From contig NZ_LR134167.1 in assembly GCF_900635775.1 (NCBI RefSeq), positions 2,141,001 to 2,205,000 of the forward strand: a stretch of DNA of 64,000 nt, in the 5' to 3' direction. The stretch comes from Avibacterium volantium. GTDB lineage: Bacteria; Pseudomonadota; Gammaproteobacteria; Enterobacterales; Pasteurellaceae. The first letter of the stretch is position 1, and the number at the start of each line of letters is the position of its first letter. The notes beneath the pieces were generated by a model. It did no database searches and was not told the DNA's origin. It saw nothing but the letters and a program-made list of their open reading frames with translations. Positions 13,960 through 23,903 of the stretch are shown here, in pieces. The position numbers and the translations under genes were made by a program.

Positions 13960-14239
13960 CTATTCATCTAATAACCACTTCCAAATTTCAACTGTTTCAG
14001 GTTTTGGTGTACCTTTCTCCATTCCTAATTGAATAGCAATATGTTGCAACTGCTTTGCAAGCGCTGGCTGTCCACATAAATTAAGGCTTACGATAATACG
14101 AGAAATTTTTTTGTCTTCGTGTCCAATATGCTTAATCCAATAATCTCGATTCTTTACTTCCTCGCTAATTTTGAGTTCACTATTTTCCAAATATAATCCC
14201 CAATAACGGATGATATGTTTAAACGTTGTTAAAAATTTA
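13960..14239 (-). pseudogene. 3' remnant of an unidentified gene cut by IS1016
   Basis: An open frame runs from the IS edge to a stop at 13960, about 90 codons. The only usable internal starts are a TTG at 14190 or none at all, so it is probably the C-terminal part of a longer protein whose 5' end was removed by the element. The visible peptide includes RDYWIKHIGHEDKKISRIIV and KPETVEIWKWLLDE. I do not recognise the family. The frame would join in phase with the truncated gene on the far side of the island (21364-21679) if the island were removed with one 8-bp duplication. Confidence 0.5.
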
Positions 14240-14952
14240 GGGGCTGTAGTAGATTAGCCCTAAATTTCACACCATTTTCGCAATATTTTTAACTGCTCTT
14301 TTGGTGTCCCAAAGTTAAACCGAAATTCACATTCCTTCAAGAATAAAGGAAAGTTTTTTCGGTTAATTCCATTATATTTTCGCAGTATCCGCTTCGCCTG
14401 ATTCCAAAAATTTTCAATGCCATTAATATGATTTTGTTTCACCGCAAATAGCTCGGAATGATTGATTCGTTCGTGGTGAAATTCACTCACATCAAGCGCA
14501 TCATAACTGCGATAAGTGTCCGTATAAACCCAGCTATCAGGCTTGATTTTTCTTTTAATAACAGGGAGTAATGTTTCAATCTTGGTGTTTTCAACCACAA
14601 CAGTAAATACCTTTCCTTGTCGTTTTAGTCACCCAAAAACAGCAACTTTTCCAGCCGCTCCTCGTCCTCGTTTTCCCTTTCGATGACCACCAAAATAGCT
14701 TTCGTCTAGTTCAATTTCCCCCTCAAAAATCTCGTTAACTTCAAGGGATAAATGATAGCCAATCACAAGCCTGATTTTATGGTAGAACAAAGCGGCTGTA
14801 TTCGGTTGAATATCTAGCAAATTTGCTGCCGTTCTTGCAGTAACTTCTGCGACAAAAAACTCAAGCAGTTTTTTCTGTATGGATTTCTTTAATTTACAAT
14901 ATGTTATCTTCATTTTTGTAGTATAGCATTGTTGCTAATCTACTACAGCCCC
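14240..14952 (-). mobile_element. IS1016-type element (IS1595 family), copy 1
   Basis: The 713-bp element is bounded by perfect 18-bp inverted repeats GGGGCTGTAGTAGATTAG and CTAATCTACTACAGCCCC. It is nearly identical to copy 2 at 20651-21363 but in the opposite orientation. Its transposase is interrupted by a stop codon. The 8-bp flanks AAAATTTA and ATTTTTTA are not a good duplication, so the flanks have been rearranged or mutated. Confidence 0.93.
14260..14913 (-). pseudogene. IS1016-type transposase with in-frame stop
   Basis: The coding span is 654 bp, the same as the intact copy. One base differs critically: GGG-TTA-CTA in the intact copy is GGG-TGA-CTA here (around 14629), turning Leu into a stop after VAVFG. 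Downstream the frame continues unchanged to the usual end RKWCEI. Three more substitutions relative to copy 2 are seen (Leu/Phe, Ile/Asn, Tyr/His). The DDE-type ISXO2-like domain is split, so this copy should not make active transposase, although copy 2 could mobilise it in trans. Confidence 0.93.
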
Positions 14953-15507
14953 ATTTTTTATATAAATATATGTAATACTGTCACTATTTTCTTTTTTGTC
15001 TAATTTAAATGATGTTTTATTATCAAAATAAGGATTAATTTCATCAATGATTATTTTTTCAAGTATTCTTTTTTCTTTGAAAAATGTGAATATAAAGCCA
15101 TTAAATAATCTAAGGTTTAATTTATTATTATGAGAGATTTGAATAAATCCTACTACAGGTTTATTTGAAATTTTCAATACAATAGAATTTATATTCTCTA
15201 GAGGAATGTGATGACATATTTGTCTATTTTTGAAAACAATGATTGAATCTTCATAAAGTTTTATGCTATATTTTGAACTTATGACAAATTGGTTTATTAT
15301 AAGAAGAAGTATAAAGGAAATACCAAGTATAAGCCCATAAACTTTAGAAATATCAATAACAGAAGGTTTTTTGACAATGTCATAATTAAATATTTGTTCA
15401 ATAAAAGGAGCTATTAAGAAAAAAAGGACTATCCAAACTGACATTGCTAAAATCAGCTTGCTTATTGTTAAAGCTTTAAACTCATATTGACTATTATATT
15501 GTTTCAT
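14935..15507 (-). CDS. Membrane protein of unknown function, C-terminus replaced by IS1016 end
   Basis: The product has 190 residues from ATG 15507 (MKQYNSQYEFKALTISKLIL); a longer start at 15567 is possible but has no support. Two hydrophobic helices (about 15-37 and 50-72) are followed by a beta-rich cytoplasmic domain reminiscent of the bacterial PH-like/YcxB fold. The last residues (NGAVVD, then TAG) are encoded by the IS1016 inverted repeat, so the native C-terminus is lost. Codon use is very AT-rich compared with the housekeeping genes. The function is unknown and it may be non-functional. Confidence 0.55.
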   Translation of the reverse strand: MKQYNSQYEFKALTISKLILAMSVWIVLFFLIAPFIEQIFNYDIVKKPSVIDISKVYGLILGISFILLLIINQFVISSKYSIKLYEDSIIVFKNRQICHHIPLENINSIVLKISNKPVVGFIQISHNNKLNLRLFNGFIFTFFKEKRILEKIIIDEINPYFDNKTSFKLDKKENSDSITYIYIKNGAVVD

Positions 15508-15567
15508 ATTGAAGTCATTTAAACTTTTTTGGAAAATAAAAAAGGGTTGACGAAATTTGTGTTGCAA

Positions 15568-15815
15568 AACATAATCATTTCAAAGTCAACCCCATGTTGT
15601 ATAAAATACTCGACAAAGATACAATAAAAAATGAAATAATTCCACATTTGCCACGAGCAAAAAGAGGCTTTCAAGATCCGTAGGATGGGCTTCAGCCCAT
15701 CAAAGGGGATAAATTACATTAAATGATGGGCTAAAGCCCATCCTACCCGAGCCTCTCCCACAATTTGTGTAAATGCCTGTTTCTGAGATAATACATTAGA
15801 TACAGGTATTTTATT
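15568..15815. other. Intergenic stretch before the IS256 transposase
   Basis: It contains the REP-like inverted pair (15680-15746), the left end of the IS256-family element and a GGGTTGAC/GTCAACCC inverted repeat (about 15543-15593) upstream of the truncated membrane gene. No further gene is seen. Confidence 0.6.
15680..15746. repeat. REP-like inverted repeat pair
   Basis: GTAGGATGGGCTTCAGCCCA and its mirror TGGGCTAAAGCCCATCCTAC are 23-bp arms matching at 22 positions, separated by 21 bp. Each arm is itself a short hairpin (TGGGCT/AGCCCA). This is the layout of a paired REP sequence, a type often linked to RAYT transposases. None is visible in the window. The IS256-family element starts within a few bases of the right arm. 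Confidence 0.75.
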
Positions 15816-17063
15816 ATGAACGAAAAACAACTCCACGCCTTGGCAGCAGAATTTGCCAAAAACCTCAAAACGCCGGAAGACCTTAATCAGTTTTCTCGAA
15901 TGCTCAAAAAAATCACGGTCGAAGCAGCCCTAAACGCGGAACTGACTGACCACCTTGGTTATGAAAAACATCAGCCACGAAAAGGCAAAAATGCGCGTAA
16001 CGGCTATACGTCCAAAACTGTGATGTGTGATGAGGGTGAAATGGAAATTGATACCCCTCGTGACCGTGAGGGCACCTTTGAACCGCAGCTTATCAAGAAA
16101 AACCAAACCCGAATTACCGGAATGGACGAGCAGATTATCGCCTTATATGCCAAAGGCTTAAGCAATCAAGAAATCGTCGAAATGTTCAAAGAACTCTATG
16201 ATGCTGATGTGTCAACGAGCTTGATTTCTCGCGTGACAGATTCGGTTAAAGAGCGCGTCTTGGAATGGCAAAATCGCCCGCTTGATGCGGTGTATCCGAT
16301 TGTTTATTTAGATTGCATCGTGGTCAAAGTGCGTCAAGACGGGCGGATTATCAACAAGTCCGTCTTTGTGGCGTTGGGTGTGAATTTGGAGGGGCATAAA
16401 GAATTACTCGGACTCTGGATTGCCGAAAACGAAGGCGCGAAGTTCTGGGCAAACGTGCTAACAGAGCTGCAAAATCGCGGTTTAAAAGACATTTTAATTG
16501 CGTGTGTGGACGGTTTAAAAGGCTTTCCTGACGCCATTAATGCCGTTTATCCCCAAACCAAGATTCAGCTTTGCATTGTGCATTTGGTGCGTAATAGTTT
16601 GAAATATGTGTCATGGAAAGATTACAAGGCGGTGACTGCGGATTTAAAACAGGTGTATCAAGCCCCGACGGAGATGCAAGCACGCGAGAATTTGACCGCA
16701 CTTTCGCAAAAATGGCAGGAAAAATACCCGCTTGTAGCGAGAGGTTGGGAGGAGAATTGGGCGAATATCGCGACATTTTTTGATTATCCGTCGGATATTC
16801 GCAAAGCGATTTATACCACCAATGCGGTGGAGTCACTCAATAGCGTGATTCGGCGAGTCATTAAAAAACGCAACGTATTCCCGACGGATGAGTCGGTGTT
16901 CAAGGTAATATGGCTGGCGATGAAAGATGCGTCAAAGAAATGGACAATGCCGATTCAAAACTGGAAACAGGCAATGAATCGTTTTATGATTGATTTTGGT
17001 GATCGCCTCGACGATCACCGTTAAGTTGAAATGGGTGTTTACACAGAATTTGGGATAGGGTCC
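15749..17063 (+). mobile_element. IS256-family insertion sequence
   Basis: The element is about 1.3 kb and holds one mutator-type transposase. Imperfect terminal inverted repeats are visible: left TCCCACAATTTGTGTAAA and right, read on the other strand, TCCCAAATTCTGTGTAAA. Exact ends are uncertain by a few bases, and no clean target duplication is seen. An AAGTGCGGT-type uptake signal lies inside the transposase gene. Confidence 0.85.
15816..17024 (+). CDS. IS256-family (mutator-type) transposase
   Basis: The 402-residue DDE transposase starts MNEKQLHALAAEFAKNLKTP. Family signatures are the N-terminal ELTDHLGYEKH..GKNARNGYTSKT, the first catalytic Asp region YPIVYLDCIVVKVR, the second ACVDGLKGFPDAI, and the final Glu region YTTNAVESLNSVIRR. 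Length is normal for the family (about 400 aa) and no interruptions are seen, so it may be active. It lies inside the IS1016-bounded island. Confidence 0.95.
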   Translation: MNEKQLHALAAEFAKNLKTPEDLNQFSRMLKKITVEAALNAELTDHLGYEKHQPRKGKNARNGYTSKTVMCDEGEMEIDTPRDREGTFEPQLIKKNQTRITGMDEQIIALYAKGLSNQEIVEMFKELYDADVSTSLISRVTDSVKERVLEWQNRPLDAVYPIVYLDCIVVKVRQDGRIINKSVFVALGVNLEGHKELLGLWIAENEGAKFWANVLTELQNRGLKDILIACVDGLKGFPDAINAVYPQTKIQLCIVHLVRNSLKYVSWKDYKAVTADLKQVYQAPTEMQARENLTALSQKWQEKYPLVARGWEENWANIATFFDYPSDIRKAIYTTNAVESLNSVIRRVIKKRNVFPTDESVFKVIWLAMKDASKKWTMPIQNWKQAMNRFMIDFGDRLDDHR

Positions 17064-17095
17064 GAAAATCCCTCTATTTTTATAGTTAGATACCA

Positions 17096-17457
17096 CTATT
17101 CCACTTTAAACATCCCCATCATACCGAGGTTTTCATGTTCTAAAATATGGCAATGGTACATTTTCAACCCAGTATGTCCTTGCTTAAAGCGAACAATCAC
17201 TTTTTCATAAGGGCGTAAATTAACCACATCTTTTAACGCTCTGCCTTCTGGCTTAAAGGTTTTACCGTTTAACGTATGTTGAATTACTTCAAATTGAGTG
17301 CCATGCAAATGGAATGGATGATCCATATGGCTTTCATTGAAGATTTCCCACTGTTCCACTTCATTCAATTTGGTAACAAAATCAATACGGTTCATATCAA
17401 AGGTTTGACCGTTGATTAAGAACATCCCATCCATCATTGGCGGAATAGGGTTATTCT
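17096..17457 (-). pseudogene. Multicopper oxidase, C-terminal fragment
   Basis: Only the last ~115 residues of a CueO-type periplasmic copper oxidase remain. The fragment carries copper ligands of the third cupredoxin domain: HPFHLHG and YHCHILEHENLGMMG (HCH-x3-H-x4-M). An in-frame TAG lies just before NPIPPMMDGMFLINGQ, and the upstream sequence resembles an IS1016-type end, so the N-terminal domains were removed. Full-length enzymes are around 500 aa and oxidise Cu(I). It is probably dead, but it shows that the island once held copper-resistance genes. Confidence 0.85.
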
Positions 17458-17479
17458 AACCTGAAATTAGATTTCCCTA

Positions 17480-17497
17480 GTTATCTAGTACAGCCCC
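17480..17497. repeat. Degenerate IS1016-type terminal repeat
   Basis: The sequence TTATCTAGTACAGCCCC resembles the intact IS1016 right end (CTAATCTACTACAGCCCC) and lies next to the truncated oxidase. It looks like a scar of a third, deleted element. Confidence 0.45.
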
Positions 17498-17511
17498 TTA
17501 AATATTTGTTT

Positions 17512-17591
17512 AAAACACCGTTTGGAGCAATTCAAGCGGTGTTTTCGTGTGGAAATTTTGCAAAAATGAACTTTCAGGCTGCCTGAAAAAC
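17512..17591 (-). terminator. Terminator plus Neisseriaceae-type uptake sequence, module 1
   Basis: An AAAACACCG...CGGTGTTTT hairpin is followed by a spacer and then AGGCTGCCTGAA (17576-17587). That 12-mer equals the AG-simDUS dialect described for Simonsiella, and its complement reads as the Kingella dialect. The same terminator-spacer-uptake-sequence unit recurs at 18681-18759. It sits at the 3' end of the MerR-type regulator. Confidence 0.7.
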
Positions 17592-17592
17592 A

Positions 17593-17991
17593 TTATCCTT
17601 TATCTTTAATACTTTTAATGATTTGACAATTTTCAATTTCTTTATTTTGACAACCAATAATTTGTTCCAAAAATGATTTAACTTCTTGTAATTGCTTAAT
17701 TTGTTCGTTGATATGTGATAAATGTTTTTGGGTTAATTCATCAACATCATCACATTGATGATTGGGAGTTGTTTGAAATGTCAATAAGACCTGAATGTCA
17801 TTTAAAGAAAAACCGATATTGCGACAAGTTTTAATAAAGCGTAATTGTTCTAGCTGATTTTCATCAAAAACTCGGTAGCCATTAGCTTGAAAAGTTGGCT
17901 TGATTAAGCCTTGTTTTTCATAATAACGAATGGTTTCTAAATGCACGCCTGTTTGTTCACTGGCTTGTTTAATTTGAAAAATTTTTGACAT
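17593..17991 (-). CDS. MerR-family metal-responsive regulator (CadR/PbrR-like)
   Basis: The product has 132 residues from ATG 17991 (MSKIFQIKQASEQTGVHLET). The winged HTH occupies residues 3-70 with the MerR signature ETIRYYEKQGLI, and the C-terminal dimerisation helix is at 83-112. Cysteines at 80, 114 and 122 match the spacing of the Cd/Pb-binding residues of CadR/PbrR, so cadmium, lead or zinc is a likely inducer. It is transcribed divergently from a CDF transporter, with a 19-bp-spaced promoter and dyad between them, the classic MerR arrangement. A longer frame to 18072 would cross that promoter and is rejected. Confidence 0.88.
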   Translation of the reverse strand: MSKIFQIKQASEQTGVHLETIRYYEKQGLIKPTFQANGYRVFDENQLEQLRFIKTCRNIGFSLNDIQVLLTFQTTPNHQCDDVDELTQKHLSHINEQIKQLQEVKSFLEQIIGCQNKEIENCQIIKSIKDKG

Positions 17992-17996
17992 TGTAC

Positions 17997-18027
17997 TTGA
18001 CTCTGTAATAACTACGGAGTTTATATT
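17997..18027 (+). promoter_or_regulatory. MerR-type operator-promoter of the CDF gene
   Basis: The -35 TTGACT (17997-18002) and -10 TATATT (18022-18027) are separated by an over-long 19-bp spacer. The spacer region contains the dyad ACTCTGT-N7-ACGGAGT (18000-18020). Long spacers with a dyad are diagnostic of MerR-activated promoters. Confidence 0.85.
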
Positions 18028-18060
18028 ATAGCAAATTTCAATCATCTTTCGGAGTTTGTT

Positions 18061-18675
18061 ATGGCGTGCCAAAGTTGTTGCAGTTCAAATCAGCCCATTC
18101 ATCAATCACCCAAGTACAAAAAAGCCTTGTGGATTGTCTTGATATTAAATTTATCAATGTTCTTTGTGGAAATTGTAATGGGGATTAAATCGGGTTCAAC
18201 TTCGCTGTTGTCGGACAGCTTGGATTTCTTGGGCGATAGTGCCAATTATTTGATAAGTTTGATTGTTTTGCCAATGGCATTAAGTTACCGTGCCAAAGCA
18301 TCTATGGTTAAGGGGCTAACGATGGGCGTTTTTGGCTTATTTATTTTAATTACAACCATTTATCGTGCGTTTTATGGGGAAATTCCCAGTTATAGCGAAA
18401 TGAGTATTGTGGGATTTTTGGCGTTATTGGTGAATGTGTCGGCATTGTTGATATTATTAAAATTCCGTGATGGCGACAGTAATGTCCGAAGTGTATGGGT
18501 ATGTTCTCGCAATGATGCGATTGGTAATGTGGCAGTGATTTTGGCTGGCATAGCAGTTTATTTTTTTCAATCAAAATATCCTGATTTAATTGTGGCGTTT
18601 ATTTTGGCATTTTTAGCATTACAAGCCAGTCAAGAAATCATCAAAAGGGCTTGGGTGGAAGTAAAAGTCAGTTAA
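18061..18675 (+). CDS. Cation diffusion facilitator-type metal transporter, short form
   Basis: The 204-residue membrane protein has a Cys-rich N-terminus (MACQSCCSSNQ), then about five or six transmembrane helices. Metal-site motifs of the CDF family are visible: LLSDSLDFLGDSANY in the second helix and SRNDAIGNVAVI in the fifth. It lacks the usual C-terminal cytoplasmic domain (typical CDFs are about 300 aa). It probably exports a divalent metal such as Zn, Cd or Pb. It is controlled by the divergent MerR-type regulator. A terminator and uptake-sequence module follows. Confidence 0.85.
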   Translation: MACQSCCSSNQPIHQSPKYKKALWIVLILNLSMFFVEIVMGIKSGSTSLLSDSLDFLGDSANYLISLIVLPMALSYRAKASMVKGLTMGVFGLFILITTIYRAFYGEIPSYSEMSIVGFLALLVNVSALLILLKFRDGDSNVRSVWVCSRNDAIGNVAVILAGIAVYFFQSKYPDLIVAFILAFLALQASQEIIKRAWVEVKVS

Positions 18676-18680
18676 TTTAT

Positions 18681-18759
18681 AAACACCGTTTGAATTTGAT
18701 TTTCAAGCGGTGTTTTTGTTTGAGAATTTTGCAAAATAACTTTCAGGCAGCCTGAAAAA
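18681..18759 (+). terminator. Terminator plus Neisseriaceae-type uptake sequence, module 2
   Basis: AAACACCGTTTGAA...TTCAAGCGGTGTTT forms a hairpin followed by U. After a spacer comes AGGCAGCCTGAA (18745-18756), identical to the AG-kingDUS dialect. The module is a near-repeat of 17512-17591 and separates the CDF and acr3 3' ends. Confidence 0.75.
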
Positions 18760-18760
18760 C

Positions 18761-19774
18761 CTACACCCCTTTATTTTCCAGCGATTTTCGGTTTATCCAC
18801 CACACCAGCGACAACATCACAGGCACTTCAACCAACACGCCCACCACCGTTGCCAATGCCGCCCCTGAATTTAAACCAAATAAAGCAATCGCCACCGCCA
18901 CCGCCAATTCAAAAAAATTGCTTGTGCCGATTAAGCAAGCAGGGGCGGAAATGGCGTGGGGCAATTTAAGCCATTTTGCCCAAATCGCACTCAAGGCAAA
19001 AATGCCGTAAGTCTGCACCAATAAAGGAATGGCAATCAGCAGGATAATCATCGGCTTATCCACAATGGTTTGTGCCTGAAACGCAAACAACAGCACCACC
19101 GTCAATAACAATCCCAAGATAGACAAAGGCTTAAAACGCTGGCTGAATTGGCGAATTTTGTGTTCATCTTGCAAAGATTTGCGAGTGGCAACTCCCACAA
19201 GCAAAGGCAACACCAAATACAGCAACACGCTAAAAAACAGCGTATCCCACGGGATTGTGATGTCGTTGATACCCAAAAGTAGCCCAGCAATCGGGGCAAA
19301 GGCAAAAATCATAATCACATCATTTAAAGACACTTGCACCAGCGTGTAATTGGGGTCGCCTTTGACCAGTTGAGACCAAACAAAAACCATTGCCGTACAA
19401 GGTGCAACCCCAAGCAAAATCATACCTGCAATGTATTCGTTTGCCGATTGTTCATCTACCCAGCCAGCAAAAAACACCTTAAAAAACAACCAGCCAACAA
19501 GTGCCATCGTAAAAGGCTTAATCAACCAATTCACCGTTAAAGTCAGCCACAGCCCTTTGGGATTGTGGCGGATATTTTTAATGGCAAGCCAGTCAATTTG
19601 TATCATCATCGGATAAATCATCAGCCAAATCAGCACCGCAATCGGCAAATTGATTTGAGCCACCTGCATTGTGGCAATCCATTGAAAATAAGGCGTAAAC
19701 CAAATACCCAGCCCCACGCCAAGCAAAATCGCCAACCCCACCCACACACTCAAAAATCGTTCAAAAATGCCCAT
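18761..19774 (-). CDS. acr3: Arsenite efflux transporter Acr3
   Basis: The product has 337 residues from ATG 19774, two bases after the arsC stop; upstream in-frame ATGs would overlap arsC. Ten transmembrane helices are predicted by eye. The family signature [16 protein letters not shown] holds the conserved Cys needed for As(III) extrusion. It belongs to the BASS/Acr3 superfamily rather than ArsB. It exports arsenite made by ArsC. It forms an operon arsR-arsC-acr3. Base composition is noticeably more GC-rich than in neighbouring housekeeping genes. Confidence 0.95.
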
Positions 19775-19775
19775 T

Positions 19776-20186
19776 TTATGCCCCTTGTACGCGGATGATT
19801 TCGCCATCTTCTTTGACAAAATCACTGTGTAATACCACAGGTGAAATGCTCAGAAACACTTCGCTTGGACGGCACAAACGCACGCCTTTTTCGGTGATGA
19901 CAATCGGGCGGTTGATTAAAATGGGGGCGGTTAGCATTGCCTTGATGATGTCGTTGTCACTCACCTCGTTGTCCAAATTAAATTGTTGATATTCAGGCAC
20001 ATTACTTCGCAAAAGCTCTCTGGGCGTGATGTTCATTTGCTTAATCAGTTGGCGTAGTGTGCGTTCATCGGGCGGGGTGTCCAGATAATGAATAATGGTC
20101 GGCTCAATGCCCAAATGGCGAATCAAAGCCAGCGTGTTGCGAGAAGTACCACATTTGGGATTGTGATAAATGCTGATTGGGTGCAT
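19776..20186 (-). CDS. arsC: Arsenate reductase ArsC, glutaredoxin-coupled
   Basis: The 136-residue enzyme reduces arsenate to arsenite using glutathione and glutaredoxin. The catalytic Cys12 lies in [14 protein letters not shown]. The three oxyanion-binding arginines of the R773-type enzyme are present in [20 protein letters not shown] and RLCRPSEV. Length matches E. coli ArsC (141 aa). It stands between arsR and acr3, with a partial copy of the ArsR operator palindrome upstream at 20199-20218. Confidence 0.96.
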
Positions 20187-20198
20187 AGTATGTTCCTT

Positions 20199-20218
20199 AC
20201 TTCAAGAGTTATTGAAAT
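20199..20218 (-). promoter_or_regulatory. Second ArsR-operator-like palindrome before arsC
   Basis: ACTTCAAGAG-TTATTGAAAT matches the main operator at 20596-20617 at all but a few positions and keeps the TTCAA/TTGAA arms. It lies between arsR and arsC, 12 bp above the arsC start. Confidence 0.5.
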
Positions 20219-20236
20219 GAATGGGCAAAAAATTTG

Positions 20237-20566
20237 CTAACACGATTGGCAAAATTTTTCGCAATCGCCACCGCTTACGTTTTCACAACAGCGATGCAAT
20301 AAAAACTCAATCAAGCCGTTCATCATCGCCAAATTGGCGAAATAACGGACAAATTTTCCCTGCTGTTCACTGTAAACAAGGTTGGCGTTTGCCAAAGTTT
20401 TTAAGTGAAACGACAGATTATTGGGGGCAAGATTGAGCTGTTTTGCCAAATCGCCCGCCACCATACCACGCCCCCCTTCGGCGGTCAGAGCTTGGAAAAT
20501 GGCAAGGCGTGTGGGCGAAGCAAGACTTTCAAACAGTTTGCTGGCGTGTTCGGTGTTCATATTCAT
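20237..20566 (-). CDS. arsR: Arsenic-responsive repressor ArsR, C-terminal-cysteine type
   Basis: The 109-residue winged-helix repressor of the ArsR/SmtB family has an HTH spanning about residues 36-62 (GDLAKQLNLAPNNLSFHLKTL). It lacks the CxC in the DNA-recognition helix of the R773 type. Instead, cysteines cluster at the C-terminus: 93, 94, 102, 106 and 109 (LHRCCENVSGGDCEKFC). That matches the As(III) site described for Acidithiobacillus ferrooxidans ArsR. It is the first gene of arsR-arsC-acr3. A second ATG lies two codons in. Confidence 0.93.
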   Translation of the reverse strand: MNMNTEHASKLFESLASPTRLAIFQALTAEGGRGMVAGDLAKQLNLAPNNLSFHLKTLANANLVYSEQQGKFVRYFANLAMMNGLIEFLLHRCCENVSGGDCEKFCQSC

Positions 20567-20595
20567 AGGCGGTTAGTATAGCAGGGTGTGTTTTT

Positions 20596-20617
20596 CATTT
20601 CAATAGGTATTGAAATG
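20596..20617 (-). promoter_or_regulatory. ArsR operator (perfect palindrome)
   Basis: The arms CATTTCAATA and TATTGAAATG flank GG, giving a perfect 22-bp inverted repeat, 30-50 bp upstream of arsR and next to TATACTA, a plausible -10. Its position and symmetry fit autoregulation by ArsR. Confidence 0.75.
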
Positions 20618-20628
20618 ATGTTTGTGTG

Positions 20629-20643
20629 TTCAGGTAGCCTGAA
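20629..20643. repeat. Neisseriaceae-type DNA uptake sequence (Eikenella dialect)
   Basis: The sequence reads TTCAGGTAGCCTGAA. Its complement contains AGGCTACCTGAA, the AG-eikDUS dialect. It abuts the left end of IS1016 copy 2, at the outer edge of the ars operon. Confidence 0.7.
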
Positions 20644-20650
20644 AAATTTA

Positions 20651-21363
20651 GGGGCTGTAGTAGATTAGCAACAATGCTATACTACAAAAATGAAGATAAC
20701 ATATTGTAAATTAAAGAAATCCATACAGAAAAAACTGTTTGAGTTTTTTGTCGCAGAAGTTACTGCAAGAACAGCAGCAAATTTGCTAGATATTCAACCG
20801 AATACAGCCGCTTTGTTCTACCATAAAATCAGGCTTGTGATTGGCTATCATTTATCCCTTGAAGTTAACGAGATTTTTGAGGGGGAAATTGAACTAGACG
20901 AAAGCTATTTTGGTGGTCATCGAAAGGGAAAACGAGGACGAGGAGCGGCTGGAAAAGTTGCTGTTTTTGGGTTACTAAAACGACAAGGAAAGGTATTTAC
21001 TGTTGTGGTTGAAAACACCAAGAATGAAACATTACTCCCTGTTATTAAAAGAAAAATCAAGCCTGATAGCTGGGTTCATACGGACACTTATCGCAGTTAT
21101 GATGCGCTTGATGTGAGTGAATTTCACCACGAACGAATCAATCATTCCGAGCTATTTGCGGTGAAACAAAATCATATTAATGGCATTGAAAATTTTTGGA
21201 ATCAGGCGAAGCGGATACTGCGAAAATATAATGGAATTAACCGAAAAAACTTTCCTTTATTCTTGAAGGAATGTGAATTTCGGTTTAACTTTGGGACACC
21301 AAAAGAGCAGTTAAAAATATTGCGAAAATGGTGTGAAATTTAGGGCTAATCTACTACAGCCCC
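20651..21363 (+). mobile_element. IS1016-type element (IS1595 family), copy 2
   Basis: The 713-bp element has perfect 18-bp terminal repeats identical to copy 1 and carries an intact transposase. The 8-bp flanks are AAAATTTA and AATATTTA, a possible target duplication with one mismatch. It is inverted relative to copy 1, so the two can act as the ends of a composite element or recombine to invert the island. Confidence 0.95.
20690..21343 (+). CDS. IS1016-type transposase, intact
   Basis: The 217-residue ISXO2-like DDE transposase of the IS1595 family has an N-terminal zinc-less HTH region, IELDESYFGGHRKGKRGRG (first catalytic Asp), WVHTDTYRSYDAL (second Asp) and HINGIENFWNQAKRILRKYNG (Asn/Glu region typical of IS1016). 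It is full length, unlike copy 1, which has a TGA where this has TTA (Leu). It could mobilise both copies. Confidence 0.95.
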   Translation: MKITYCKLKKSIQKKLFEFFVAEVTARTAANLLDIQPNTAALFYHKIRLVIGYHLSLEVNEIFEGEIELDESYFGGHRKGKRGRGAAGKVAVFGLLKRQGKVFTVVVENTKNETLLPVIKRKIKPDSWVHTDTYRSYDALDVSEFHHERINHSELFAVKQNHINGIENFWNQAKRILRKYNGINRKNFPLFLKECEFRFNFGTPKEQLKILRKWCEI

Positions 21364-21679
21364 AATATTTAAGCTGTTTTTCTGCGAGTTTGAGTAATAG
21401 TGATTGCTGCTCATTCAAAACGGGTAGCGCAAATCCAGCTGAACGCTCTTTCCAATAATAGGTATAAGGCTTGCTATCGTTGTTACATTCTAAATCGTCA
21501 AAATGTAAGCAAAGTGCTTGTAGCGTTCTCTGAATACTACGTAAATCACGATTAAAGCCTAAATCTTTCAGTTTTTCGTGAATCGTTTTTGCCTCTATGC
21601 TCGCTGGCAGCCTAGGAATAATCCTTAAAATTTCTATCTGCAAAAGCGTAGCATCAATATCTTTTGGTCGAGTTGTCAT
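21364..21679 (-). pseudogene. WYL-type transcriptional regulator, truncated by IS1016
   Basis: The first ~105 residues remain: a winged HTH with TLLQIEILRIIPR..KTIHEKLKDLGFNRDLRSIQRTLQAL, then the linker and LPVLNEQQSLLLKLAEKQLKY that precedes the WYL domain in such proteins. The WYL ligand-binding domain (expected another ~200 residues) is missing. Reading continues into the IS1016 end and stops inside it (to 21311). It marks the right-hand boundary of the island in an ancestral gene. Confidence 0.7.
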
Positions 21680-21795
21680 AATTTTATAATTTCCTCTAGC
21701 TTCAATTATAAAATTATAGCAAAAGCAAGTGAATATTTTGTGAGAATAGTGAGGAGTTTAGGGCTAATCTAATATAGATATAGCCCTTATATATT

Positions 21796-22680
21796 TTACT
21801 TCGGCGCTTGCATAAAGCGGAAGAAGTCGCTGTCTGGTTTGAGAATCAGCATATTGTTTGATTCTGCAAAGCTTTTTTCGTAGGCTTTCATACTACGCAC
21901 AAAGCTGTAAAATTCAGGTTCTTGCGCAAAGGCATCGGCGTAGAGTTTGGCGGCGGCGGCATCACCGTTACCGCGCAATTCTTGTGCCGTTTTATTGGCG
22001 GTGGCCAGAATCACTGTAACTTTACGATCCACATCGGCTTGGATAAATGCGGCTTTTTCTTTACCTTGTGAACGATGTTCACGGGCCACTGCATCACGCT
22101 CTGCACGCATACGCTGGTAGATTGATGAAGACACTTCATCAGGGAGATTGATTTGTTTTACTCGTACATCAACCACTTCAATCCCTAATTCTGAGGTGCT
22201 ATCTTGCCCTGTATTCAAGGCTTTGCGCGCACCAACCATTAATTCGCCGCGTGTCCCTGACACAATGTCTTTAATGGTGCGTGAACCCACTTCAGAGCGT
22301 AAACGGTCATTCACTTTACGGCGTAATAAGTTAGACGCTTGAGTATAATCGCCACCACCTGTTGCGGTGAAGAAACGGCCGAAATCACTGATTCGCCATT
22401 TCACATAAGAATCCACTAAAAGATCCTTTTTCTCAACGGTAACAAAGCGATCTGGCGCGCCATCAAGGGTGCGAATACGCGCATCTAACACTTTCATTGA
22501 GTCAATAAATGGGATTTTAAGGTGTAAACCTGGCTCATACACCTCCACTTTATTGTCAGAATCACGATGAACTTTACCGAAACGCAACATAATACCGCGC
22601 GTGCCTTCATCTACAATCACAAGGCTAGAATAAATCACCGCAAGCAATACCAGTAAAACAGGGGTTAAAATCTTACGCAT
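21796..22680 (-). CDS. hflC: FtsH modulator HflC
   Basis: The 294-residue SPFH/band-7 protein has an N-terminal membrane anchor (about residues 5-22) and a large periplasmic SPFH domain with DSYVKWRISD. A coiled coil follows with MRAERDAVAREHRSQGKEKA. HflK and HflC form a large cage around the FtsH protease in the inner membrane and modulate its substrate choice. Its start overlaps the hflK stop (TAATG). Confidence 0.96.
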   Translation of the reverse strand: MRKILTPVLLVLLAVIYSSLVIVDEGTRGIMLRFGKVHRDSDNKVEVYEPGLHLKIPFIDSMKVLDARIRTLDGAPDRFVTVEKKDLLVDSYVKWRISDFGRFFTATGGGDYTQASNLLRRKVNDRLRSEVGSRTIKDIVSGTRGELMVGARKALNTGQDSTSELGIEVVDVRVKQINLPDEVSSSIYQRMRAERDAVAREHRSQGKEKAAFIQADVDRKVTVILATANKTAQELRGNGDAAAAKLYADAFAQEPEFYSFVRSMKAYEKSFAESNNMLILKPDSDFFRFMQAPK

Positions 22681-23903
22681 TAGTTAAATCTCCCTTGGCG
22701 ATTTTCAGATGATTGTTGATAGCTCTCACTGTTGGAAAAAGAGCGAGTTTCGGAATAAATTTCCTGATTTTTCACCGCACTTTGTGAATTTGATGAGTTA
22801 GGTGCGGTGCTTTTTGGGCTATTTTTTTGCGATAAAATTTTATCGAGCGGCAGCACACTTAAATTATTTCCGTTGCTATCAAGCAATACTTTTGGCGTGT
22901 TTGCCATCACTTTTTCCATCGTTTGAATATATAAGCGATCACGCAATAATTGCGGCGCGGCTTTAAATTCAGGCAATAAGCGTTGGAAACGTTCCACTTC
23001 CCCTTGAGCATTTAACACCACTTGATCTTTATAGGCGGTGGCTTCTTCAATAATGCGTTGTGCATTACCACGTGCGATTGGCTCTTGCTCGCGGGCATAG
23101 GCTTCCGCTTCACGAATATAGCGTTGCTCATCTTCTTGTGCTTTGATCGCATCATCAAAGGCGGCTTTCACTTCTTCAGGTGGGCGCGCAGATTGGAAGT
23201 TCACATCAAGCACTTCTAACCCCATATCATAAGGCTGAATAATGCCATTCAAGGCTTTCCAAGTGTCTTCACGCACAATAGAACGCCCTGTGGTTAAAAT
23301 ATCGTCCATTGACATATGGCCAATCACATAACGCAACGCACTGTCGGTGGCTTGGTTTAAGCTGTCATCTGCATTGGTTACGCTGAATAAATATTTCGCT
23401 GGATCACTCACTCGATATTGCACGGTCATTTCCACTTTCACCATATTTTCATCGCGAGTAAGCATTGCGCCTTGGGTTTTCAGCTCTTTCACCTGTTCCA
23501 CATTAACGGGGATCACTTTATCTACGAAAGTCGGTTTCCAGTTCAAACCCGGTTGTACGATTTTTTCCAGCTCACCAAAACGTAACACCACGCCACGCTC
23601 TGCTTCTTTTACGGTATAAAAACCGCTCACGCCCCAAACAATCGCACCAATCACCGCGGCAACAGGTAACAATTTACCTAAGCCGAATGACAGGCCTTTG
23701 CCACCGCTATTATGGTTGCCACCATTTTGGCCACCACCGAGTTTTTTCAATAAATTACTAAAGACTTCTTCAAGATCAGGTGGGGATTGTTCCTGCTTAT
23801 TGCGCTTATCCCATTGGTTATTTGGATCGGATTTGTTATCCGATTGATTTGGGTTGCTCCCTGGTTTTCCCCAAGGATCTTGATCTGAACCATTAAAGGA
23901 CAT
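22680..23903 (-). CDS. hflK: FtsH modulator HflK
   Basis: The product has 407 residues from ATG 23903, which has GGAG eight bases upstream; an ATG at 23915 is poorer. A Gly/Asn/Gln-rich cytoplasmic tail (about 1-75) precedes one membrane helix (LLPVAAVIGAIVWGVSGFY). The SPFH domain (about 95-260) and a helical region with YAREQEPIARGNAQRIIEEA follow. It partners HflC, encoded next. The C-terminal tail is Ser/Asn/Gln-rich and partly encoded by uptake-signal DNA (CACCGCACTTTG), as often happens in this family. Confidence 0.95.
   Translation of the reverse strand: MSFNGSDQDPWGKPGSNPNQSDNKSDPNNQWDKRNKQEQSPPDLEEVFSNLLKKLGGGQNGGNHNSGGKGLSFGLGKLLPVAAVIGAIVWGVSGFYTVKEAERGVVLRFGELEKIVQPGLNWKPTFVDKVIPVNVEQVKELKTQGAMLTRDENMVKVEMTVQYRVSDPAKYLFSVTNADDSLNQATDSALRYVIGHMSMDDILTTGRSIVREDTWKALNGIIQPYDMGLEVLDVNFQSARPPEEVKAAFDDAIKAQEDEQRYIREAEAYAREQEPIARGNAQRIIEEATAYKDQVVLNAQGEVERFQRLLPEFKAAPQLLRDRLYIQTMEKVMANTPKVLLDSNGNNLSVLPLDKILSQKNSPKSTAPNSSNSQSAVKNQEIYSETRSFSNSESYQQSSENRQGRFN

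Follow-up and report, generated by a model that had tools for sequence, protein, structure and literature searches.

A metal-resistance cassette with neisserial uptake-sequence dyads in Avibacterium volantium, probably shuttled between Pasteurellaceae and Neisseriaceae

The genome of Avibacterium volantium (Pasteurellaceae; G000, a single contig of 2,230,476 bases) contains, within the 64,000-nucleotide stretch analyzed here (positions 2,141,001-2,205,000, referred to as the window), a compact cassette of predicted metal-resistance genes (window positions 17510-20643; Table 1). It is composed of two modules: (i) a merR-family regulator gene and a cation diffusion facilitator (CDF) gene, cdf, which are divergently oriented, and (ii) an arsenic resistance (ars) operon, whose genes arsR, arsC and acr3 follow one another on the minus strand, acr3 being convergent with cdf. 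The 3' ends of the gene units carry two copies of a palindromic DNA uptake sequence (DUS) dyad of neisserial type, and dyads are present at matching places in relatives from both Pasteurellaceae and Neisseriaceae.

The gene functions proposed here follow from family membership. ArsR, the glutaredoxin-type ArsC and Acr3 all score above curated cut-offs. ArsC would reduce arsenate to arsenite for export by Acr3, and ArsR would repress arsC-acr3. The MerR protein lies below the cut-offs of its closest NCBIfam model, CadR-PbrR (112.3 versus 151.45 bits), and of the CueR model (100.2 versus 147.4 bits); its start was taken from relatives annotated at 132 amino acids (aa), and longer in-frame starts exist. 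This protein would drive the divergent, 19-bp-spaced cdf promoter, with the CDF protein exporting a divalent cation. A -35 and a -10 box spaced 19 bp apart across an inverted repeat are the usual design of MerR-controlled promoters. The inverted repeat ACTCTGTA..TACGGAGT was also found by a computed listing, and a promoter scan restricted to spacers of 16-18 nt does not report the predicted promoter.

Table 1. Features of the cassette and its surroundings (window coordinates)
Feature	Position	Strand	Basis
Insertion sequence (IS) of the IS1595 family, left copy; transposase frame interrupted (split over two open reading frames)	14233..14952	-	inverted repeat of 20651-21370, 720 nt, 99%
CueO-like multicopper oxidase, C-terminal fragment	17096..17437	-	Pfam Cu-oxidase_2 3e-30; CueO model positions 422-528 of 529
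Putative remnant end of a second IS1595-family element (approximate extent)	17440..17508		sequence and comparison with G023
Composite repeat R1: hairpin ACACCG..CAAGCGGTGT, AATTTTGCAAAA (like segment 3 of the Apl-type uptake signal sequence), then dyad	17510..17591	+	folding z -2.9
Overlapping sim/king DUS dyad TTCAGGCTGCCTGAA	17573-17587		exact match to TTCAGGCWGCCTGAA
merR-family regulator, 132 aa from ATG at 17991	17593..17991	-	Pfam MerR_1 2.3e-19
Predicted MerR-type promoter for cdf: TTGACT, 19-bp spacer, TATATT, inverted repeat ACTCTGTA..TACGGAGT	17997..18027	+	read from sequence
cdf, short cation diffusion facilitator, 204 aa	18061..18675	+	Pfam Cation_efflux 4.3e-17; TIGR01297 87.7 bits (cut-off 82.35)
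Composite repeat R2, between convergent cdf and acr3: terminator hairpin with T-run, AATTTTGCAAAA, dyad	18676..18760	+	folding z -4.6
Overlapping sim/king DUS dyad TTCAGGCAGCCTGAA	18742-18756		exact match to TTCAGGCWGCCTGAA
acr3, arsenite efflux permease, 337 aa from ATG at 19774	18761..19774	-	TIGR00832 394.6 bits (cut-off 282.8)
arsC, glutaredoxin-type arsenate reductase, HNPKCGTSR motif	19776..20186	-	TIGR00014 123.6 bits (cut-off 106)
Possible ArsR site CTTCAAGAGTTATTGAAATG upstream of arsC	20200..20219		sequence
arsR, ArsR/SmtB repressor, C-terminal cysteines	20237..20566	-	NF033788 63.5 bits (cut-off 55)
Inverted repeat CATTTCAATAGGTATTGAAATG ahead of arsR, likely ArsR operator	20596..20617		sequence
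Decayed dyad TTCAGGTAGCCTGAA (eik type in the earlier note)	20629-20643		aligned with G206, G090 and G023
IS1595-family element, right copy, intact 217-aa transposase	20651..21370	+	Pfam DDE_Tnp_IS1595 2.9e-34; NCBIfam transpos_IS1595

An earlier note on this DNA had pointed to three 12-mers of neisserial DUS dialects in the block, and all three are indeed present: AGGCTGCCTGAA at 17576 (+), AGGCAGCCTGAA at 18745 (+) and AGGCTACCTGAA at 20629-20640 (-), the last lying three bases from the position originally given (20632). The first two are not separate tags of sim and king type, because each pair of matches, 17573(-)/17576(+) and likewise 18742(-)/18745(+), is a single palindrome read on both strands. 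This 15-bp palindrome, TTCAGGCWGCCTGAA, is an overlapping sim/king dyad: one strand gives simDUS, the opposite strand kingDUS. The DUS arrangement of Simonsiella muelleri has been called overlapping (in the part of Frye et al. 2013, PMC3630211, used here), and overlapping dyads are described as the commonest arrangement in this species and as prevalent in Alysiella crassa and Kingella negevensis (likewise from part of Hughes-Games et al. 2020, PMC7371117). The third site departs from the exact dyad by substitution. At the matching position the pasteurellacean genome G090 has an exact TTCAGGCTGCCTGAA and the neisserial genome G206 has TTCAGACTGTCTGAA; since these relatives hold a dyad or dyad-like sequence there, 20629-20643 is best regarded as a decayed dyad. 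An inherited Eikenella-dialect DUS was therefore rejected, and with it the Eikenella-type donor suggested at first.

The motifs are real and far above chance expectation. The pattern AGGCNNCCTGAA occurs 10 times in the whole A. volantium genome, five of them in the 3.1-kb block (17573-20640) and the others at 1,332,961, 1,348,854, 2,124,484, 2,126,379 and 2,131,170; the reversed control pattern was found once. In 3000 third-order Markov sequences of block length the three 12-mers had a mean of 0.0017, and none of these sequences reached the observed five. Two exact dyads are present in the entire 2.23 Mb, both inside the block. Surveys of 140 Pasteurellaceae and 83 Neisseriaceae genomes (counts complete, positions listed in part) detected exact dyads in 41 of the former (range 0-11 per genome) and at least one in 70 of the latter, ten of which hold 726-2067. 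The dyad is thus abundant in the presumed source lineage and rare in the host family, i.e. it is foreign to Pasteurellaceae and plentiful in one neisserial group. The absence of the host's own Hin-type uptake signal sequence (USS), also raised in the earlier note, adds little. The motif AAGTGCGGT occurs 1564 times in the genome (799 forward, 765 reverse; 83 for the reversed control), and is absent from 16704 to 22773 (gap from 16695 to 22774), the largest such gap in the window; only about 2.2 would be expected in 3.15 kb (Poisson probability about 0.11), so that as a stand-alone argument this gap was rejected as too weak. Nor does GC content set the block apart (40.8% versus 41.3% in the remainder of the window).

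The five-gene order is also found on a Pasteurella multocida plasmid (77% DNA identity over 95% of the query) and in Rodentibacter heidelbergensis, and merR-cdf alone on a Glaesserella parasuis plasmid (94%), all with exact or near-exact dyads at corresponding places. Copies of cdf with at least 93% aa identity are present in 24 of the 140 Pasteurellaceae (A. volantium included) and four of the 83 Neisseriaceae; in a 398-genome sample of the phylum, none of the matches listed outside Pasteurellaceae exceeds 50%. At 21 of these 24 loci cdf has an exact dyad no further than 1.5 kb away, the other three having altered forms, and near cdf at three of the four neisserial loci; no exact dyad was found near cdf at six examined loci of 69-86% identity. 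Acr3 is shared at 98% with G206 and G090, and at 100% with G023 (a member of the same genus), G025 and a truncated copy in G024. G206 is one of the ten dyad-rich Neisseriaceae (1861 dyads, with 9 exact ones in the 12 kb around its ars unit), and its acr3-arsC-arsR segment is 96.3% identical to the block at the DNA level over 1951 alignment positions. Gene by gene, the DNA identities to G206 are 97.4% for acr3, 95.1% for arsC, 98.8% for arsR, 97.2% for cdf and 79.6% for merR. Because the ars unit is so close to that of one of the ten dyad-rich genomes, contact with a neisserial lineage of the dyad dialect is well supported; with merR far less similar to its G206 counterpart than the adjoining cdf, the merR/cdf module is itself mosaic. 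For every gene, the nearest copies at the loci compared are those of other Pasteurellaceae (99.7-100% DNA identity in G023 and G025).

The trees of the two modules disagree. That of Acr3 (85 rows, obtained by a quick search and using the first 45 of 80 named loci, with L162 excluded at less than 240 aa; Neisseria weixii and the window gene are each present twice, and 11 of 74 inner branches are starred) places the window protein in a seven-row clade (support 100) with its own duplicate, four other Pasteurellaceae and G206. This clade is nested in a 39-row clade of both families (support 99), whose deepest branches are neisserial (82-88), a topology that fits a neisserial origin of the ars part. 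The more careful tree of the CDF protein (50 rows, with 12 other proteobacterial rows as the root) has two distant neisserial rows as its first branches; six Pasteurellaceae rows come next, on five branches (two forks weak), and last the clade associated with dyads (30 rows, 26 Pasteurellaceae and 4 Neisseriaceae; support 99/98); from a corresponding DNA tree L119 and L132 were dropped as short, and L131 gave no match. The two halves of the cassette therefore appear to have different histories, neisserial for ars, and pasteurellacean with later neisserial contact for cdf. Of the comparison with Neisseriaceae proposed earlier, the Acr3 tree fits the expected foreign origin and the CDF tree, with its dyad clade amid Pasteurellaceae lineages, does not; placement within Pasteurellaceae, named at that time as the refuting outcome, is partly what we see, given the nearest copies, the CDF tree and the merR identity of 79.6%.

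Each exact dyad is the last part of a composite repeat (R1 and R2), and the two repeats flank the merR/cdf module. In both, a hairpin whose right arm contains CAAGCGGTG precedes AATTTTGCAAAA, after which comes the dyad, i.e. a terminator hairpin and a near-complete Apl-type USS followed by a neisserial tag; R1 is about 82% like the R2 of G023. The Apl-type USS of Actinobacillus and Mannheimia consists of a core, ACAAGCGGT, whose first two positions are weak, and a downstream AAAATTTTGCAAAT (in the part of Redfield et al. 2006, PMC1626085, used here). R1 and R2 resemble it in having CAAGCGGT, then 15 nt, then TTTTGCAA, like the core plus segment 3; they differ in that the first core base is T, not A, the host is of the Hin type, and a dyad follows directly. 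The 9-bp core is thus matched at eight positions (TCAAGCGGT), and segment 3, at the usual spacing, closely but not letter for letter. The long form (CAAGCGGT and TTTTGCAA 12-18 nt apart) occurs twice in the 3.1-kb block, against a mean of 0.0003 in 3000 simulated sequences, none of which had two. It was found 65 times in 400 kb of G007, an Apl-type user (179 Apl and 9 Hin cores), and was absent from 400 kb of G207, 240 kb of G223, 380 kb of A. volantium and 66 kb of selected G206 contigs (the cdf contig excluded). The cdf loci of G206 and G207 do carry it.

A strict composite pattern is present in 21 of the 140 Pasteurellaceae and eight of the 83 Neisseriaceae (five copies in G206, seven in G207, of which five lie within 8 kb, and one in each of six others), some of the neisserial copies being without the AATTTTGCAAAA middle. 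Like R1 and R2 (z -2.9 and -4.6), one composite repeat from G207 folds strongly (z -5.3), and one from G206, folded without its left arm and hence as an incomplete input, gave z -0.04. In the 400-kb sample of G207, 268 dyads are accompanied by a single ACACCG..CGGTGTTTT hairpin, and the Apl-type long form is absent, so that the composite repeat is not a usual neisserial repeat; we rejected that reading also on account of the G223 stretch and of the small number of Neisseriaceae with the strict pattern. It seems to mark shuttled DNA and to be characteristic of neither family.

R2 is retained downstream of cdf, and the sequence beyond it varies, falling into nine or more contexts. With the acr3 context as reference, the other eight diverge at -17, -3, +1, +3, +5, +6, +13 and +26 nt, counted from where the R2 dyad ends; outward from merR, the change of context comes after the R1 hairpin, and in the P. 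multocida type it comes at the dyad. Of 153 pairs 140 diverge, 88 of them in the range from -5 to +9 nt around the dyad end; such pair counts are not independent, and we therefore relied on the distinct contexts. G028 shares the acr3 context and breaks 100 nt further on, inside acr3. Module edges in other genomes fall mostly at the dyad. At R2 itself the window matches the cdf contig of G206 leftward and its ars contig rightward, as expected if the modules were joined within the repeat. At the left edge of the P. multocida plasmid copy the merR dyad is fused to an incomplete acr3 copy, the end of which coincides with the internal DUS of acr3. The partial second acr3 of this plasmid lies at L091:5666-6016, and a similar fragment was seen in L011, L189, L200, L202 and L203.

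The IS1595-family elements, which we take to be IS1016-like, form two like inverted copies enclosing the cassette together with an IS256-family element and the cueO fragment, i.e. an IS-flanked composite structure. Identity between G023 and the window is 95.5-96.7% in the chromosomal flanks and 99.4% across the cassette with its ISs; in G023 the inner segment (window 14233-21370) is inverted relative to the flanks. This difference in identity suggests that exchange of the cassette between members of the genus probably took place after the species had separated; alternatively, the cassette evolves more slowly. On the side of the putative IS remnant, G023 has a stretch 68% similar to the IS copies of the window. 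None of the ten open reading frames scanned from 14.9 to 21.7 kb belongs to an integrase or conjugation family: besides the five cassette genes they comprise transposases, the CueO fragment and two frames that match no family, and this stretch does not qualify as an integrative and conjugative element (ICE). Sequence like 17063-17452 recurs near cdf in G023, G024, G025, G046, G055, G056 and the P. multocida plasmid. Possible vehicles adjoin the cassette elsewhere: annotated integrase genes on the P. multocida plasmid (L091:10066-13625) and, by eye, an integrase-like frame in R. heidelbergensis (L011:10554-12281).

Foreign tags also occur at other places. A second tagged region of A. volantium outside the window (G000:C1:2124484-2131181; L123:7484-14181) contains sim, AT-DUS, AG-DUS and eik 12-mers, with genes that by eye resemble those of oxidoreductases and regulators of MarR and LysR type, and two Hin USS between the tags; among the matches listed from the plasmid collection, none covers more than 11% of this query. 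In the pasteurellacean genome G002, a 60-kb stretch (C2:180001-240000; L275-L277) combines 19 Apl cores, 13 Hin, 10 AT-DUS, 4 AG-DUS, 11 dyads and 5 composite repeats. In another, G139 (L296), a non-overlapping inverted DUS-like hairpin, TTCAGGCAGCCTTGCTGCCTGAA, immediately follows a cdf of 55% identity, and this 4-kb locus holds one exact dyad as well.

Taken together, these observations make it likely that the cassette (17510-20643) has two modules that were shuttled between the families, were assembled by recombination at the repeats and then spread within the genus between IS copies. The block would once have resided in a neisserial lineage with overlapping sim/king dyads, where uptake by transformation may have favoured and retained the dyads, and would now be circulating in Pasteurellaceae. 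Short homology at the composite repeats could have joined modules in varying combinations. The same repeats would end transcription, the R2 hairpin serving cdf and the R2 dyad the convergent acr3 unit, and the later spread in the genus may have involved IS-flanked movement or recombination.

Several findings weigh against this shuttling. Among 24 loci compared, merR of the window type (at least 96% aa identity) is confined to Pasteurellaceae; the neisserial cdf locus of G170 is surrounded by its own AG dialect, without a dyad; and the G207 sample has a single such hairpin and no long form. Selection for intact transcription units might account for breakpoints at terminators, and the joints could alternatively be due to site-specific recombination: an integrase using a DUS site has been proposed in the section of Hughes-Games et al. 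(PMC7371117) consulted here. The plasmid and integrase-bearing copies demonstrate that the cassette could also have travelled by conjugation or site-specific recombination. Plasmids, ICEs or integrase-bearing elements whose hosts include both families may then have been the sole vehicle, with dyads as passengers from an earlier neisserial host and no role for transformation. The copies on the 275-kb P. multocida plasmid (beside integrase genes) and on the 24-kb G. parasuis plasmid, the frame near the R. heidelbergensis copy and the ISs around ours all speak for such a route, which is a possible explanation, if not the probable one; the ten frames tested around the window copy contain no conjugation or integrase family, and the edges of the merR/cdf module follow the repeats and not a fixed element end. 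The neisserial donor of the earlier note survives as contact with a dyad-dialect lineage, not as a single source of all the metal genes. That the whole 3.1 kb arrived in one piece from a Kingella/Simonsiella/Alysiella-like donor would agree with the dyad dialect (PMC7371117, in part), the near identity of the G206 ars unit and the neisserial deepest branches of the shared Acr3 clade. Such a simple one-way gift is nevertheless not supported and appears unlikely, given the location of the ars unit and merR-cdf of G206 on different contigs, each with its own repeats, the CDF tree rooted through Pasteurellaceae lineages, the closest copies in other Pasteurellaceae, a merR allele (79.6%) other than the neisserial one beside a cdf of 97.2%, and the Apl-type features of both repeats.

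It is hardly conceivable that the genes are native to Pasteurellaceae and that their terminators just happen to resemble DUS. The dyads do fold as short hairpins that score as terminators, and two Apl-USS-like features lie in the same repeats; the simulated counts strongly disfavour this reading, as does the presence of dyads in equivalent positions in the two families (protein identity 93-98%). A bolder extension of the shuttling hypothesis is that the composite repeats are bilingual joints for uptake and recombination, which stem from residence in both families and enable competent cells of either one to import and splice cassettes of this kind, cdf having made a round trip from Apl-type Pasteurellaceae through dyad-dialect Neisseriaceae to Hin-type Pasteurellaceae. 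In its favour, both repeats have the long Apl form, the CDF branches beside the dyad clade are pasteurellacean, the G002 stretch mixes the tags of both families, and a perfect Apl core lies at most 61 nt after cdf, in the place of R2, in five of 14 outgroup copies of 68-86% identity (two of the five are alike and from one genome, and three have the core on the opposite strand). Against it, the two nearest outgroup copies (83% and 86%) have no Apl core, the latter seemingly with an IS end there; two distant neisserial rows branch deeper in the CDF tree; the R2 core is incomplete (8/9); and R1 and R2, being related, count as one event. We advance this idea tentatively and consider it rather doubtful: the repeat with tags of both families is the most interesting part of the cassette and the least proven.

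Uptake sequences are thought to restrict the transformation of each family to its own DNA. The dyads in 41 of 140 Pasteurellaceae genomes, of which only some places were examined, offer a tracer for leaks across this barrier, and joints at the tags suggest that tags shape the cutting and joining of accessory genes. If bilingual repeats do work in both uptake systems, the barrier would be porous in a specific way.

In gene content and curated family scores the block is like other ars operons of the arsR-arsC-acr3 type, from which it differs in being joined to a divergent merR-cdf pair through an uptake-sequence repeat. Haemophilus-Neisseria exchange was reportedly traced by uptake sequences by Kroll and colleagues in 1998, with Haemophilus tags in the meningococcus; there, as here, the tags of one family in the other are the evidence of transfer, but the direction is opposite, neisserial tags being found here in Pasteurellaceae. 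Among the titles listed by searches of a literature collection that lacks most subscription papers, none reports DUS dyads of neisserial type in chromosomes of Pasteurellaceae. By its title alone, the paper on ICEHs1 of Histophilus somni (PMC6048870) also concerns metal tolerance encoded on mobile DNA in this family. The closest parallel is provided by the ICEriNK islands of Neisseria and Kingella, as far as the part of the report drawn on here describes them (PMC7371117): they bear the same foreign overlapping sim/king dyads, the DUS dialect likewise traces acquired DNA, and a lineage of the K. negevensis/Simonsiella/Alysiella kind is implicated. In our case the recipient belongs to Pasteurellaceae, the acquired DNA is a 3.1-kb resistance cassette without conjugation genes, and the repeats include an Apl-type USS; the same part of that report suggests that similar dialect tracing ought to work in Pasteurellaceae.

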